From: an uncultured Methanobrevibacter sp.
Lineage (GTDB): Archaea; Methanobacteriota; Methanobacteria; Methanobacteriales; Methanobacteriaceae
DNA: 64,000 nt
NCBI GenBank assembly: GCA_902774685.1
Contig: CACYJH010000003.1
Span: forward strand, 1 to 64,000
Direction: 5' to 3'
Notes under the pieces: model-generated
Database searches by the model: none
What the model saw: the letters and a program-made list of their open reading frames with translations, nothing else
Told to the model about the DNA's origin: nothing
Shown: positions 31,258-34,931 of the stretch, piece after piece
How the letters are laid out: each line of letters begins with the position of its first letter
Position numbering within the stretch: the stretch's first letter is position 1
Translations under genes and position numbers: made by a program

Positions 31258-32334
31258 ATGGAAAAAACATATTTCAATTCAGCAGAAAAACTTTGGTTAA
31301 TATTAATAGCTTTTATTCCTTTAATCAATGGATTAGGTTTTGTTTATATAGGTGCAAAAAAATCCAATAAGAACTGGATAAAAGAAGGTTTAATTTATGA
31401 AATTCCATGGATTTTACTATTTTTAAGTTTATATCATGACGATATCGCTGTTAATTTTGTATTTCTTGGATTTATTGGCATATTGATATGTTTCATTAGG
31501 ACATTAATGGTTTTTTCAAAGTTGAATGAACCTGTTGGAGCTGATTTGGAACATAGCATTTTAGGAAGAAAGACTTCAAGCTCCTATTGGGTGATCTTTT
31601 CAATAATCCTATTCTTGAATGGTGTAGGTTTAATGCTTGTTGGTACTAAAAGAAATGTGCAACGATGGGTTAGAGCAGGTGCAGCATTTGAAATCCTATG
31701 GGTATTATACATACTATTATTCAATGCAGGTGAAGGCATAAGGAATTTCATTATTTCATTGGCATTCATTGGTTGGCTTTTATCAATTGCTTTAACAATC
31801 ATAGTATACTTTGAAGAGAAAAGAATGGATAACGGAGGCACATTAGTTTTCGATAGTCCAATTGAAGAATCTCCGATTAATGCTGAACCGGAACCTGTTA
31901 AAAATATTATTAAGGAATCTCCTAATCCTGAAATCATTCCACAATTCAGACCTTATAATACTCAAATAAATGATTTGAAGAATGAATTTAATCATAAAGA
32001 GGAGAATATCACCAATTTAATCAATAATCGCTTCAACAAGGAAGAATTAAGCTATGATAGATTCATGACAGTCATTGATAACTGCCATAAGATATTTTAT
32101 CATCAAGCGGATTCCGCTTCAAGCATAATTCAATTGGCTCCTGAATTTAGTGAAAGGCTAGATGAAAGCGTCAAAGGTAAAATAAGCATTATGGAATCTA
32201 TAAATGATGAGATGAATAATCTTTTAGAAGAGCTTATCCTTCATGATGGTGATGAAAAGCAGTCAGATGAAGATTTAAAGGAATTGTTCTCCAATATGGA
32301 CAATCTTATAAATTCAGTAAAGGATTATAGATAA
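31258..32334 (+). CDS. Membrane protein with two internal repeats (paralogue A)
   Basis: A protein of 358 residues. The N-terminal half holds two copies of a membrane module: LWLILIAFIPLINGLGFVYIGAKKSNKNWIKEGLIYE..., then YWVIFSIILFLNGVGLMLVGTKRNVQRWVRAGAAFE... A proline/glutamate linker follows, then a soluble helical domain of about 130 residues. The protein at 33643 has the same plan and recognisable identity in both halves. A K+ channel gene lies between them. The ATG at 31258 is preceded by GAGGGGGAATAAT; a TTG at 31243 is rejected. Family unknown. The C-terminal domain recalls XpaC-like helical proteins, weakly. Confidence 0.7.
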   Translation: MEKTYFNSAEKLWLILIAFIPLINGLGFVYIGAKKSNKNWIKEGLIYEIPWILLFLSLYHDDIAVNFVFLGFIGILICFIRTLMVFSKLNEPVGADLEHSILGRKTSSSYWVIFSIILFLNGVGLMLVGTKRNVQRWVRAGAAFEILWVLYILLFNAGEGIRNFIISLAFIGWLLSIALTIIVYFEEKRMDNGGTLVFDSPIEESPINAEPEPVKNIIKESPNPEIIPQFRPYNTQINDLKNEFNHKEENITNLINNRFNKEELSYDRFMTVIDNCHKIFYHQADSASSIIQLAPEFSERLDESVKGKISIMESINDEMNNLLEELILHDGDEKQSDEDLKELFSNMDNLINSVKDYR

Positions 32335-32494
32335 TAATCCTTTCATCTTTTTTTTTAAAAAATATATGAAAAATATAATTATATTCTCTTAAATAGTCTC
32401 TTTTTTAAAATTTTTAAATAAATTTATAATAAATAAAATTATAATTTTAATTATAAATAAAAAACTTTTCAAATTCAAATATCAGAGGCAAATT

Positions 32495-33349
32495 ATGAGC
32501 TTTTATCAAAACAACAAGTTTAATTTCTTTTTATCAGTGCTGATTATAATCGATTTGATCTTGATAACATTGACATTGATTTCAGAAGTGGATGCGAACC
32601 TATATTTCGGCATAGTTGTCTTTGATACCGTTTTATGTATTATTTTGATTATTGAATTCATTACAAGACTAATGGATTCAGACAATAAAAAGCGATTTTT
32701 ATTAAAGAACTGGACAGAATTGATAGCTGCAATACCATTTGATTTGATAATGTTGCCATTTGCCTTGAATAATGCCCATTTAAGGATTTTTAAGATATTG
32801 AAATTCATTAAGGTAATTGCTCTCTTTTCACAATTCTTTGAAACTATTGATGTTTTCTTGAAAAAGACCCATTTGGATGAGATTTTTGGTGTGACCCTTT
32901 TGGTTGTGCTTGCTTCGACACTTGCATTATATCTATTTGATCCAAGCATAAACAGTTTATTTGACAGCCTATGGTTTGTGCTTTCCACCATTACAACAGT
33001 TGGTTATGGTGATGTCCTGCCACAATCAGGTCCTGGAAAAATAATAGGATTGATCACTTTAATCGTAGGAGTATTGATTTTCAGTACAGTCACTGGTGCT
33101 ATAGCTTCTTATTTTGCAAGAAGAGTGTTGATGAATGAAGACTTCAACATCACTGAACACGATGACAACATCGAACTTTTGAAAGAAAATTTAAGCTTCA
33201 ACAAGAAAAATCTAAGTGAAGTTCATTCCAAAGTATATAAGATAGACAATGATGTTGAATCTCTCAAAAAGGAAGTAAGTGAACTGAAAGAGATTAATAA
33301 AGAATTGACTGAAGAGATAAAAAATCTCAATGAAAAATTAAATAATTAA
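32495..33349 (+). CDS. Voltage-gated-type potassium channel
   Basis: An ion channel subunit of 284 residues. S1-S4-like segments occupy residues about 8-125, with an S4 containing few positive charges (RIFKILKFIKVIALF). The pore helix and filter STITTVGYGDVLP are at about 163-175 and S6 at about 182-205. The TVGYGD filter indicates K+ selectivity. In place of an RCK/TrkA domain, the C-terminus (about 215-284) is a charged coiled coil likely to assist tetramer assembly. Lying between two paralogous membrane-protein genes on the same strand, it may function with them (inference). RBS AGAGGCAAAT. Confidence 0.88.
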   Translation: MSFYQNNKFNFFLSVLIIIDLILITLTLISEVDANLYFGIVVFDTVLCIILIIEFITRLMDSDNKKRFLLKNWTELIAAIPFDLIMLPFALNNAHLRIFKILKFIKVIALFSQFFETIDVFLKKTHLDEIFGVTLLVVLASTLALYLFDPSINSLFDSLWFVLSTITTVGYGDVLPQSGPGKIIGLITLIVGVLIFSTVTGAIASYFARRVLMNEDFNITEHDDNIELLKENLSFNKKNLSEVHSKVYKIDNDVESLKKEVSELKEINKELTEEIKNLNEKLNN

Positions 33350-33642
33350 ATTATAATTTTTAAATAAATTAAATAAATCATCCAAAAATTAATAATTTTA
33401 ATCCCTATTTTTTTTTAAAAGTATACATTTTGGAATAATTGATGCTATTTTTTATGATTTTTTAAAAAAAGTATACATTTTTGAAAAATAAATACAAAAC
33501 CTTATATACTAAAAATATTATAGTAACTTTAGGATATAAAAATGTCCTAACAAATACATTAGAAAACTAAAAAATGAATTAATTATATAATTAATTAGAA
33601 TGTTAAATTTAGAATTTGAAAAAAAGTTGTAAGGTGGGGGTT

Positions 33643-34743
33643 ATGACACGAACTATTTTTCAAAAGATTACAAGCTCTTTATGGGTTTTGTGTTCCTTTA
33701 TTCCATTTTTTAGTGGTTTGGGATTAATTTATGTAGGAAACAAGTATGCAAATGCCAAATGGTTTATGGAAGGGATAGCATATGAACTGCCTTCTATAAT
33801 CGGAGTATTGGCTATTCAAAGAATTGAAGTGGCAACAGTATTTTTTGTAATAGGATCCTTAGTGCCATATGTTGCTTTTATCAGAAGCATCATGGTGGAT
33901 TTCACTCTTCAAAAGCAGCTTGATAAAACTGAAATGGTTAGCACAAGCTTTGAAGAAAAAATTGATTCAATTATAGATTCCCTGTGGGTTTTGATTTCAT
34001 TCATTCCTGTTTTCAACGGTTTTGGACTTATCTATAAGGGAAAAACAAATCCTAATAAATCCTTGTTGACAGAAGGGATTGTCTATGAAATCCCTTGGGC
34101 TTTAGGAATTTTATCCTTAGCTGTTCCTCCATTGAGATTCATATCATTAAAATTGGCAATTGTTTTCTATTTCGCATCTGTCATCAGATCAGTAATGGTG
34201 GCTAATGAACCAAAACCATTGTATGCGAATAAGGATATAAACGCTAAAGAAGCTGATTTTAAACTTAAATCTAATGGATGCAAAGAAGAAAAAATTAATC
34301 TTAAAAAAGAGTCTGTTGATGTAAAAAGTGAAGATGGAGTTGTTCCAGCATTCCAATTTTACAAGAAACAGTTCAAGGAATTGGAAGAAATCTATCCTCA
34401 AAAAGAGAAGAATGCAATGGAGTTAATTGAAAAAAGATTTGCTCCTCCTCAATTGACTTATAATAGGTTCAAGAGGGTTGTTGATGATTCTCATGAAACA
34501 TTCTACAGTCAATTGAATGCAGGATACAATATTCTCGAAATGAGTAATGAATACAGTACAAAAGTAGAAGATGAATTAAAGAATAAGTTATTGGTCTTGA
34601 ATTCAATAATCAAAGGTTTGGATAAGCTATCTGAAGAATTGATTCTTAACATAACCAAAATAGAAACAGAATCTGAAGATGAATTGGATAACTTATTTGA
34701 AGAGGTTTCAAGAGCAACAGGTTCTGTGAAAGCTTATAATTAA
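33643..34743 (+). CDS. Membrane protein with two internal repeats (paralogue B)
   Basis: A protein of 366 residues. Two repeated modules: LWVLCSFIPFFSGLGLIYVGNKYANAKWFMEGIAYELP..., then LWVLISFIPVFNGFGLIYKGKTNPNKSLLTEGIVYEIP..., each followed by further hydrophobic segments. After a charged linker comes the helical C-terminal domain (KEKNAMELIEKRFAPPQLTYNRFKRVVDDSHETFYSQL ... SEELIL). The start at 33643 follows the strong RBS AAGGTGGGGG; an upstream TTG at 33616 is rejected. A TATA-like CCTTATATACTAAA about 130 bases upstream suggests its own promoter. Paralogue of the protein at 31258; function unknown. Confidence 0.7.
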   Translation: MTRTIFQKITSSLWVLCSFIPFFSGLGLIYVGNKYANAKWFMEGIAYELPSIIGVLAIQRIEVATVFFVIGSLVPYVAFIRSIMVDFTLQKQLDKTEMVSTSFEEKIDSIIDSLWVLISFIPVFNGFGLIYKGKTNPNKSLLTEGIVYEIPWALGILSLAVPPLRFISLKLAIVFYFASVIRSVMVANEPKPLYANKDINAKEADFKLKSNGCKEEKINLKKESVDVKSEDGVVPAFQFYKKQFKELEEIYPQKEKNAMELIEKRFAPPQLTYNRFKRVVDDSHETFYSQLNAGYNILEMSNEYSTKVEDELKNKLLVLNSIIKGLDKLSEELILNITKIETESEDELDNLFEEVSRATGSVKAYN

Positions 34744-34931
34744 TTTTCTTTTATTTTTTACTTTTACTTTTTTTATTTTTTTATTATTTTATTATTTTTA
34801 TCATATTCTATCTTATTCTATCTTATTTAACCTATTTTTAATTAACTCCTATTCTCTAGTCAATATGTAAATTGTAAAGATATATTAAATATTGGCAATA
34901 TATATTCTATTGAATTAATGTAAGTGATAAT

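Follow-up and report, generated by a model that had tools for sequence, protein, structure and literature searches.

In a 64,000-nucleotide stretch of DNA from an uncultured Methanobrevibacter sp., a methane-producing archaeon of the gut (contig CACYJH010000003.1, positions 1 to 64,000; here called the window), the gene for a potassium channel lies between the genes for two similar membrane proteins, P1 and P2, which raises the question of whether the three products work together or are only neighbors. A first-pass annotation of the window had proposed an undescribed channel complex in which the two paralogues act as sensors or auxiliary subunits. The elements of the locus are as follows, with the C-terminal domain of P1 and P2 referred to as the C-domain.

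31258–32334, + strand: P1, with two tandem membrane modules (about aa 8–190), a linker and, at the C-terminus, a helical domain as putative adaptor (aa 230–358)
31945–32331, + strand: C-domain of P1 (TelA-associated adaptor domain)
32350–33470, no strand: segment inverted relative to six relatives (blastn), with the channel as the only gene carried
32495–33349, + strand: Kv-type K+ channel with an S1–S4 voltage sensor, a TVGYGD pore and a C-terminal coiled coil (Ion_trans/Ion_trans_2)
33643–34743, + strand: P2, a paralogue of P1 with the same plan (modules about aa 8–195, C-domain aa 237–366)
34351–34740, + strand: C-domain of P2

All three open reading frames run from ATG to stop on the + strand in the order P1–channel–P2, with gaps of 160 bases between P1 and the channel and 293 bases between the channel and P2, and the sequence has a G-rich stretch upstream of each ATG (31258, 32495 and 33643). 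The annotated arrangement, two paralogues of one plan flanking a TVGYGD channel on one strand, is indeed present in the window. P1 and P2 align from end to end with 110 of 367 residues identical (30%, E 5e-51), which marks them as paralogues. A profile of the membrane module matches each protein twice, at residues 14–96 and 112–195 of P1 and 18–100 and 121–201 of P2 (counted from upstream TTG starts). Neither protein has a Pfam or NCBIfam family above cut-off, and the two are the sole members of their family found in the assembly of their own genome. The predicted model of P2 (pLDDT 72.9 and pTM 0.43 overall; pLDDT 82–93 for residues 241–330 and lower thereafter) shows membrane helices in two groups, then a disordered linker and, at the C-terminus, a helical bundle whose helices span residues 235–265, 271–300, 306–338 and 346–363. 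As modeled, the fold of the C-domain is a generic helical bundle. No named fold could be assigned to it by Foldseek (best E 0.33) or by VIA-align, where the best Z of 11.9, to a designed three-helix bundle, is in a range common for helical bundles; a sequence search of the PDB returned mainly designed coils and weak matches.

Judged by its sequence, the gene between P1 and P2 encodes an ordinary KvAP-like voltage-gated K+ channel. It matches the Pfam families Ion_trans (5.9e-13) and Ion_trans_2 (1.5e-14), its TVGYGD selectivity filter starts at residue 168 within a six-segment plan, and its S4, HLRIFKILKFIKV (S4-like H-L-R-I-F-K-I-L-K-F-I-K), carries four basic residues, one at every third position. 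The closest solved structures are 6uwm (E 1.5e-21, residues 18–215), 2a0l and 1orq, all of which we take to be KvAP. Following S6, residues 212–284 have a heptad periodicity that was matched by none of 5000 shuffles, and no RCK or TrkA domain is among the 25 Pfam families listed of 26, in agreement with the first-pass annotation, which had described a coiled coil in place of an RCK domain. The channel thus does not appear to be an RCK-gated K+ channel of the MthK type, as it has the coiled coil where the C-terminal RCK domain would be.

If P1 and P2 were sensors or auxiliary subunits in a dedicated complex with this channel, the three genes could be expected to stay together. In our sample of 19 genomes of the genus, the own genome included, channel orthologues (at least 56% identity) occur in 12. 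A C-domain gene is found within 3 kb of the channel in nine of these, and in a tenth (G033), at the edge of a contig, the channel adjoins a terminal fragment of P1. For the other two, G028 and G034, the distance from the channel to a contig end is no more than 240 bases. The full order P1–channel–P2 recurs in six relatives (L075, L078, L079, L080, L087 and L088), where P1 is intact in three, cut by a contig end in L078, and disrupted in L075 (by an in-frame stop) and L087, being split into two frames in both while P2 and the channel stay open. Ratios of dN/dS between 0.04 and 0.26 indicate purifying selection on P1, the channel and P2. In two further genomes (G019 and G030) the channel adjoins a shorter, one-module P2-like protein (L077, L086). 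A 218-aa protein of MotA/TolQ/ExbB type also adjoins the channel in these two genomes (L077:4037-4693, L086:2637-3293).

The kept order and the adjoining C-domain gene or P1 end in 10 of 12 orthologues thus speak for a complex, and the expectation that the trio stays together across Methanobrevibacter is borne out to that extent; it fails in G017 (L074), where P2 lies between the usual flanking genes without P1 and without a channel orthologue, and in G033, which lacks the stretch 33350–34825 including P2. Obligate co-occurrence, as for a Kv auxiliary subunit, can therefore be dismissed, with P2 present without the channel in the former genome and the channel without P2 in the latter. Moreover, the flanking genes SseB, uvrC, 34932, TPR and uvrB are syntenic in most relatives with the trio, so that general synteny accounts in part for the kept order, which proves little by itself. 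The same synteny favors the simplest alternative, that the channel landed between tandem paralogues in one ancestor and that the order has persisted ever since together with the rest of the region. We regard this neutral explanation as unlikely, albeit a serious contender, as the channel has kept its place next to other forms of partner (G019, G030) and also through an inversion.

The inversion is evident from the six relatives with the order P1–channel–P2, all of which encode P1 and P2 on one strand and the channel on the other. The reverse-matching segment in blastn comparisons starts at 32352–32484 and ends at 33345–33387 depending on the relative (outer limits 32352–33387), and the flanking DNA is colinear with the relatives up to 32364 and from 33434–33460. 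A perfect 14-nt inverted repeat of A/T is present at the ends of the inverted segment (32350–32363 and 33457–33470), which in such AT-rich DNA may be due to chance. G033 has the channel in the same orientation as the window, and we conclude that the same-strand layout is particular to these two genomes; what the first-pass annotation described holds in the window and not as a general feature. This rules out a three-gene operon for the genus and counts against a dedicated complex. An invertible switch was also considered, but the bracketing repeat is a run of A/T, and the inversion is fixed as far as seen.

Comparison of alleles among the relatives gives a further indication. L080 and L088 have UvrC proteins that are 99% identical and C-domains that are 90% (P1) and 93% (P2) identical, compared with 66% for the membrane part of P2 and 77% for the S1–S4 region of the channel. 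The nucleotide sequences follow the same pattern, with about 93% identity in uvrC and uvrB, 90–92% in the C-domains and 68–81% in the parts encoding membrane modules. The contrast between the two parts of P2 suggests variable modules attached to a constant adaptor. In L075, S1–S4 of the channel is 92% identical to L080 and 77% to L088, whereas the membrane part of P2 is 87% identical to L088 and 63% to L080. This mixture of an L080-like channel and an L088-like P2 indicates that, in a set of five relatives, the alleles have changed partners at least once. In these few genomes there appears to be no strict matching of channel and P2 partners, which would argue against tight lock-and-key pairing. 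The proposal of an undescribed channel complex thus retains a trio that is kept in part of the genus, and loses the same-strand order, the obligate co-occurrence and the matching of alleles; together with the many family members located away from channels (see below), this makes a dedicated complex quite unlikely in our estimate.

The distribution of the C-domain points in another direction. A profile (A1) built from 38 C-domain sequences finds the domain in 92 of 151 genomes of the phylum, with every match inside the Methanobacteriaceae. Matches to P2, mostly via the C-domain, occur in 91 of the 138 genomes of this family, and TelA occurs in 84 of the 138, in the same six genera. The gene found repeatedly 3′ of the C-domain gene is TelA (PF05816, E 1.4e-62 to 4e-65 in the three tested). 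For at least 75 of 87 TelA loci, a C-domain is encoded no more than 3 kb away; among the 150 C-domain matches listed, 79 have TelA within this distance, 17 a channel and 54 neither. At one syntenic place in seven genomes of the genus (L179–L185), the partner of TelA is a zinc-ribbon C-domain protein. Methanosphaera sp. ISO3-F5 has a C-domain/TelA pair on a plasmid, pNP174 (L151).

The double-module plan of P1 and P2 is itself part of this association. It was found in 23 of 50 C-domain proteins from the fetched loci and the window, of which 8 are next to TelA, 11 next to a channel, 4 next to neither and none next to both. Three TelA gene runs (L083, L094 and L095) consist of a P1/P2-like double-module protein upstream, then a short C-domain protein, and TelA last; in five others (L097–L100 and L113) the upstream double-module proteins are fused to a zinc ribbon, and the membrane module adjoins TelA as a stand-alone copy in L105, L133, L136 and L140. 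P1/P2-type proteins are also often found without a channel, in G017 as described and away from any channel in G019 and G029 (L076, L083 and L084). With these cases and the 8 of 23 fetched double-module proteins that adjoin TelA instead, the outcome that the first-pass annotation had named as refuting its proposal, paralogues often located far from any channel gene, does occur.

The N-terminal parts of C-domain proteins that adjoin TelA differ, being a zinc ribbon, a membrane module or a UvrD/PD-(D/E)XK helicase-nuclease (L102), and C-domains in general have zinc ribbons, UvrD/PD-(D/E)XK helicases or paired membrane modules of a second kind as further front ends. The proteins of UvrD helicase and PD-(D/E)XK nuclease that end in a C-domain are encoded at L102:7265-11053, where the next gene is TelA, and at L106:5234-9607. 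A separate gene run at L107:1719-8112 comprises an AAA ATPase (AAA_lid_6), a zinc-ribbon/paired-module C-domain protein, a DinG-like helicase and SseB-domain proteins; genes of like size are present in L109 and L110, with the AAA gene confirmed in L109, and we found no family name for this type of run.

P1 and P2 are not beside TelA in the window, and TelA was not found in the own genome, whose assembly is 87% complete. A gene that flanks TelA and is 94–98% conserved in three relatives is also missing from the assembly, and of the genes at the TelA flanks one of 427 aa has a 67% match elsewhere in the genome and one of 338 aa has no match (searches run without a positive control). The absence of such a conserved flanking gene and the incomplete assembly would fit an assembly gap as the reason why TelA was not found.

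Outside the genus, association between the channel and the C-domain is rare. At least 10 of the 91 channel-like matches listed have a C-domain within 3 kb, nine of them in the genus and a single one (G051) outside it, and neither a C-domain nor a module gene was found near 20 other channel loci, mostly high-ranking matches outside the genus, in the stretches fetched (0/20). One pair among 65 matches listed compares with 0.44 channel/C-domain pairs within 3 kb expected outside the genus by chance, which is consistent with neutral neighbors. The G051 pair itself (L091/L188) is less easily reconciled with them: the channel gene starts about 7 bases after that of a C-domain membrane protein of the second kind, on the same strand, and about 0.003 pairs as close and on one strand are expected by chance, by a threshold that was picked after seeing G051. 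As an independent case, it also lends some support to a dedicated complex.

The surroundings of this pair suggest yet another possibility. In G051 a run on one strand (L188:6008-14760) encodes an McrB-like ATPase, McrC, SWIM, a zinc-ribbon membrane protein, the C-domain membrane protein, the Kv channel and an AAA_15 ATPase close to the PD-T4-4_A and AriA profiles. It is adjoined by a gene of DUF4062, named as an antiphage family in PMC13174449. The run is possibly a defense gene run with a channel. By extension, C-domain proteins and TelA could form an antiviral platform, with the channel as an effector that depolarizes the membrane or releases K+. The mosaic, fast-diverging membrane modules would fit such a role, as would matches of the UvrD helicases with a C-domain fusion to GajB profiles, except that UvrD/GajB profile matches are unspecific. 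A defense annotation of the trio finds no footing: P1, P2, the channel and likewise TelA have no PADLOC match, and no defense gene was noticed beside the trio in the parts of the neighborhood looked at. We therefore consider the antiviral explanation very unlikely.

These results lead us to propose, with moderate confidence, that P1 and P2 belong, as subunits anchored in the membrane, to a TelA-type envelope-stress system of archaea, and that an ordinary Kv channel is lodged between them without being their obligate partner. The assignment follows from the strong genomic link of the family to TelA, and adjacency does not equal contact. The neighborhood is real, but its earlier reading wrongly put the channel at the center; an as yet unnamed family of archaeal adaptors linked to TelA is the better supported result. 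The two variable, fast-evolving membrane modules of P1 and P2 would serve as sensor or anchor, fused to the conserved cytoplasmic helical bundle, and the C-domain could act as an adaptor, bringing TelA and the different C-domain proteins together in a single assembly at the membrane. P1 and P2 may sense the state of the envelope, and the channel might act in the same response, to reset the membrane potential or K+ once the envelope has been damaged; a functional coupling of the channel with P1 and P2 is plausible. One may speculate further that the archaeal C-domain acts as a hitherto undescribed type of adaptor, connecting exchangeable front ends such as paired membrane modules, zinc ribbons and helicase-nucleases to a TelA-centered response, and that in two lineages a Kv channel was taken on as effector at the membrane; an attack on the envelope by a bacteriocin or virus, once sensed, would then open or relocate the channel and collapse or restore the membrane potential. 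This larger scenario strikes us as decidedly improbable.

TelA proteins are widespread and linked to tolerance of antimicrobials that act on the cell envelope, and to our knowledge their mechanism is not settled. In archaea, a compact version whose modular adaptor occurs in varied fusions provides TelA with candidate partners that can be tested, and the association with a Kv channel hints at what a TelA-type response might act on. It also offers a first hint at the function of a domain frequent in methanogens of the rumen and gut, for which we found no matching family entry. Searches of open-licence PMC papers listed no description of TelA or of this channel locus in Methanobrevibacter.

Three known systems invite comparison. 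McrBC runs with accessory genes, such as the CoCoNuTs (PMC11090510), resemble the G051 run, in which the channel/C-domain pair accompanies McrB-like, McrC and SWIM genes; the main text of that paper does not contain the terms potassium, SWIM or TelA, and the trio in the window has no McrBC neighbor. A second parallel is the TelA/YaaN–XpaC pair of Gram-positive bacteria. Bacterial TelA gene runs with xpaC are described as being under envelope-stress control in PMC3498285, PMC3139573 and PMC12791056; the first gives xpaC-yaaN of B. subtilis as a core sigma-W operon, and the second reports induction of the xpaC-like/telA1 genes of L. lactis in membrane-protein stress. The relatives of our genome likewise encode a helical C-domain protein next to TelA, although TelA is not adjacent in the window and the archaeal C-domain is fused to membrane modules and zinc ribbons. 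The C-domain is not recognizable as XpaC (PF10112): the own genome has no match to the profile, the 25 families most often matched by the 38 C-domains do not include PF10112, and nothing in the 151 genomes of the phylum scored above cut-off, with a positive Lactococcus control. By analogy, the C-domain would take the place of XpaC beside TelA without matching it. Finally, the channel shares six segments, a basic S4 and the TVGYGD filter with archaeal channels of the KvAP type, and differs from them in having a coiled coil of some 70 residues at its C-terminus and in the position of its gene between membrane proteins of the TelA type.
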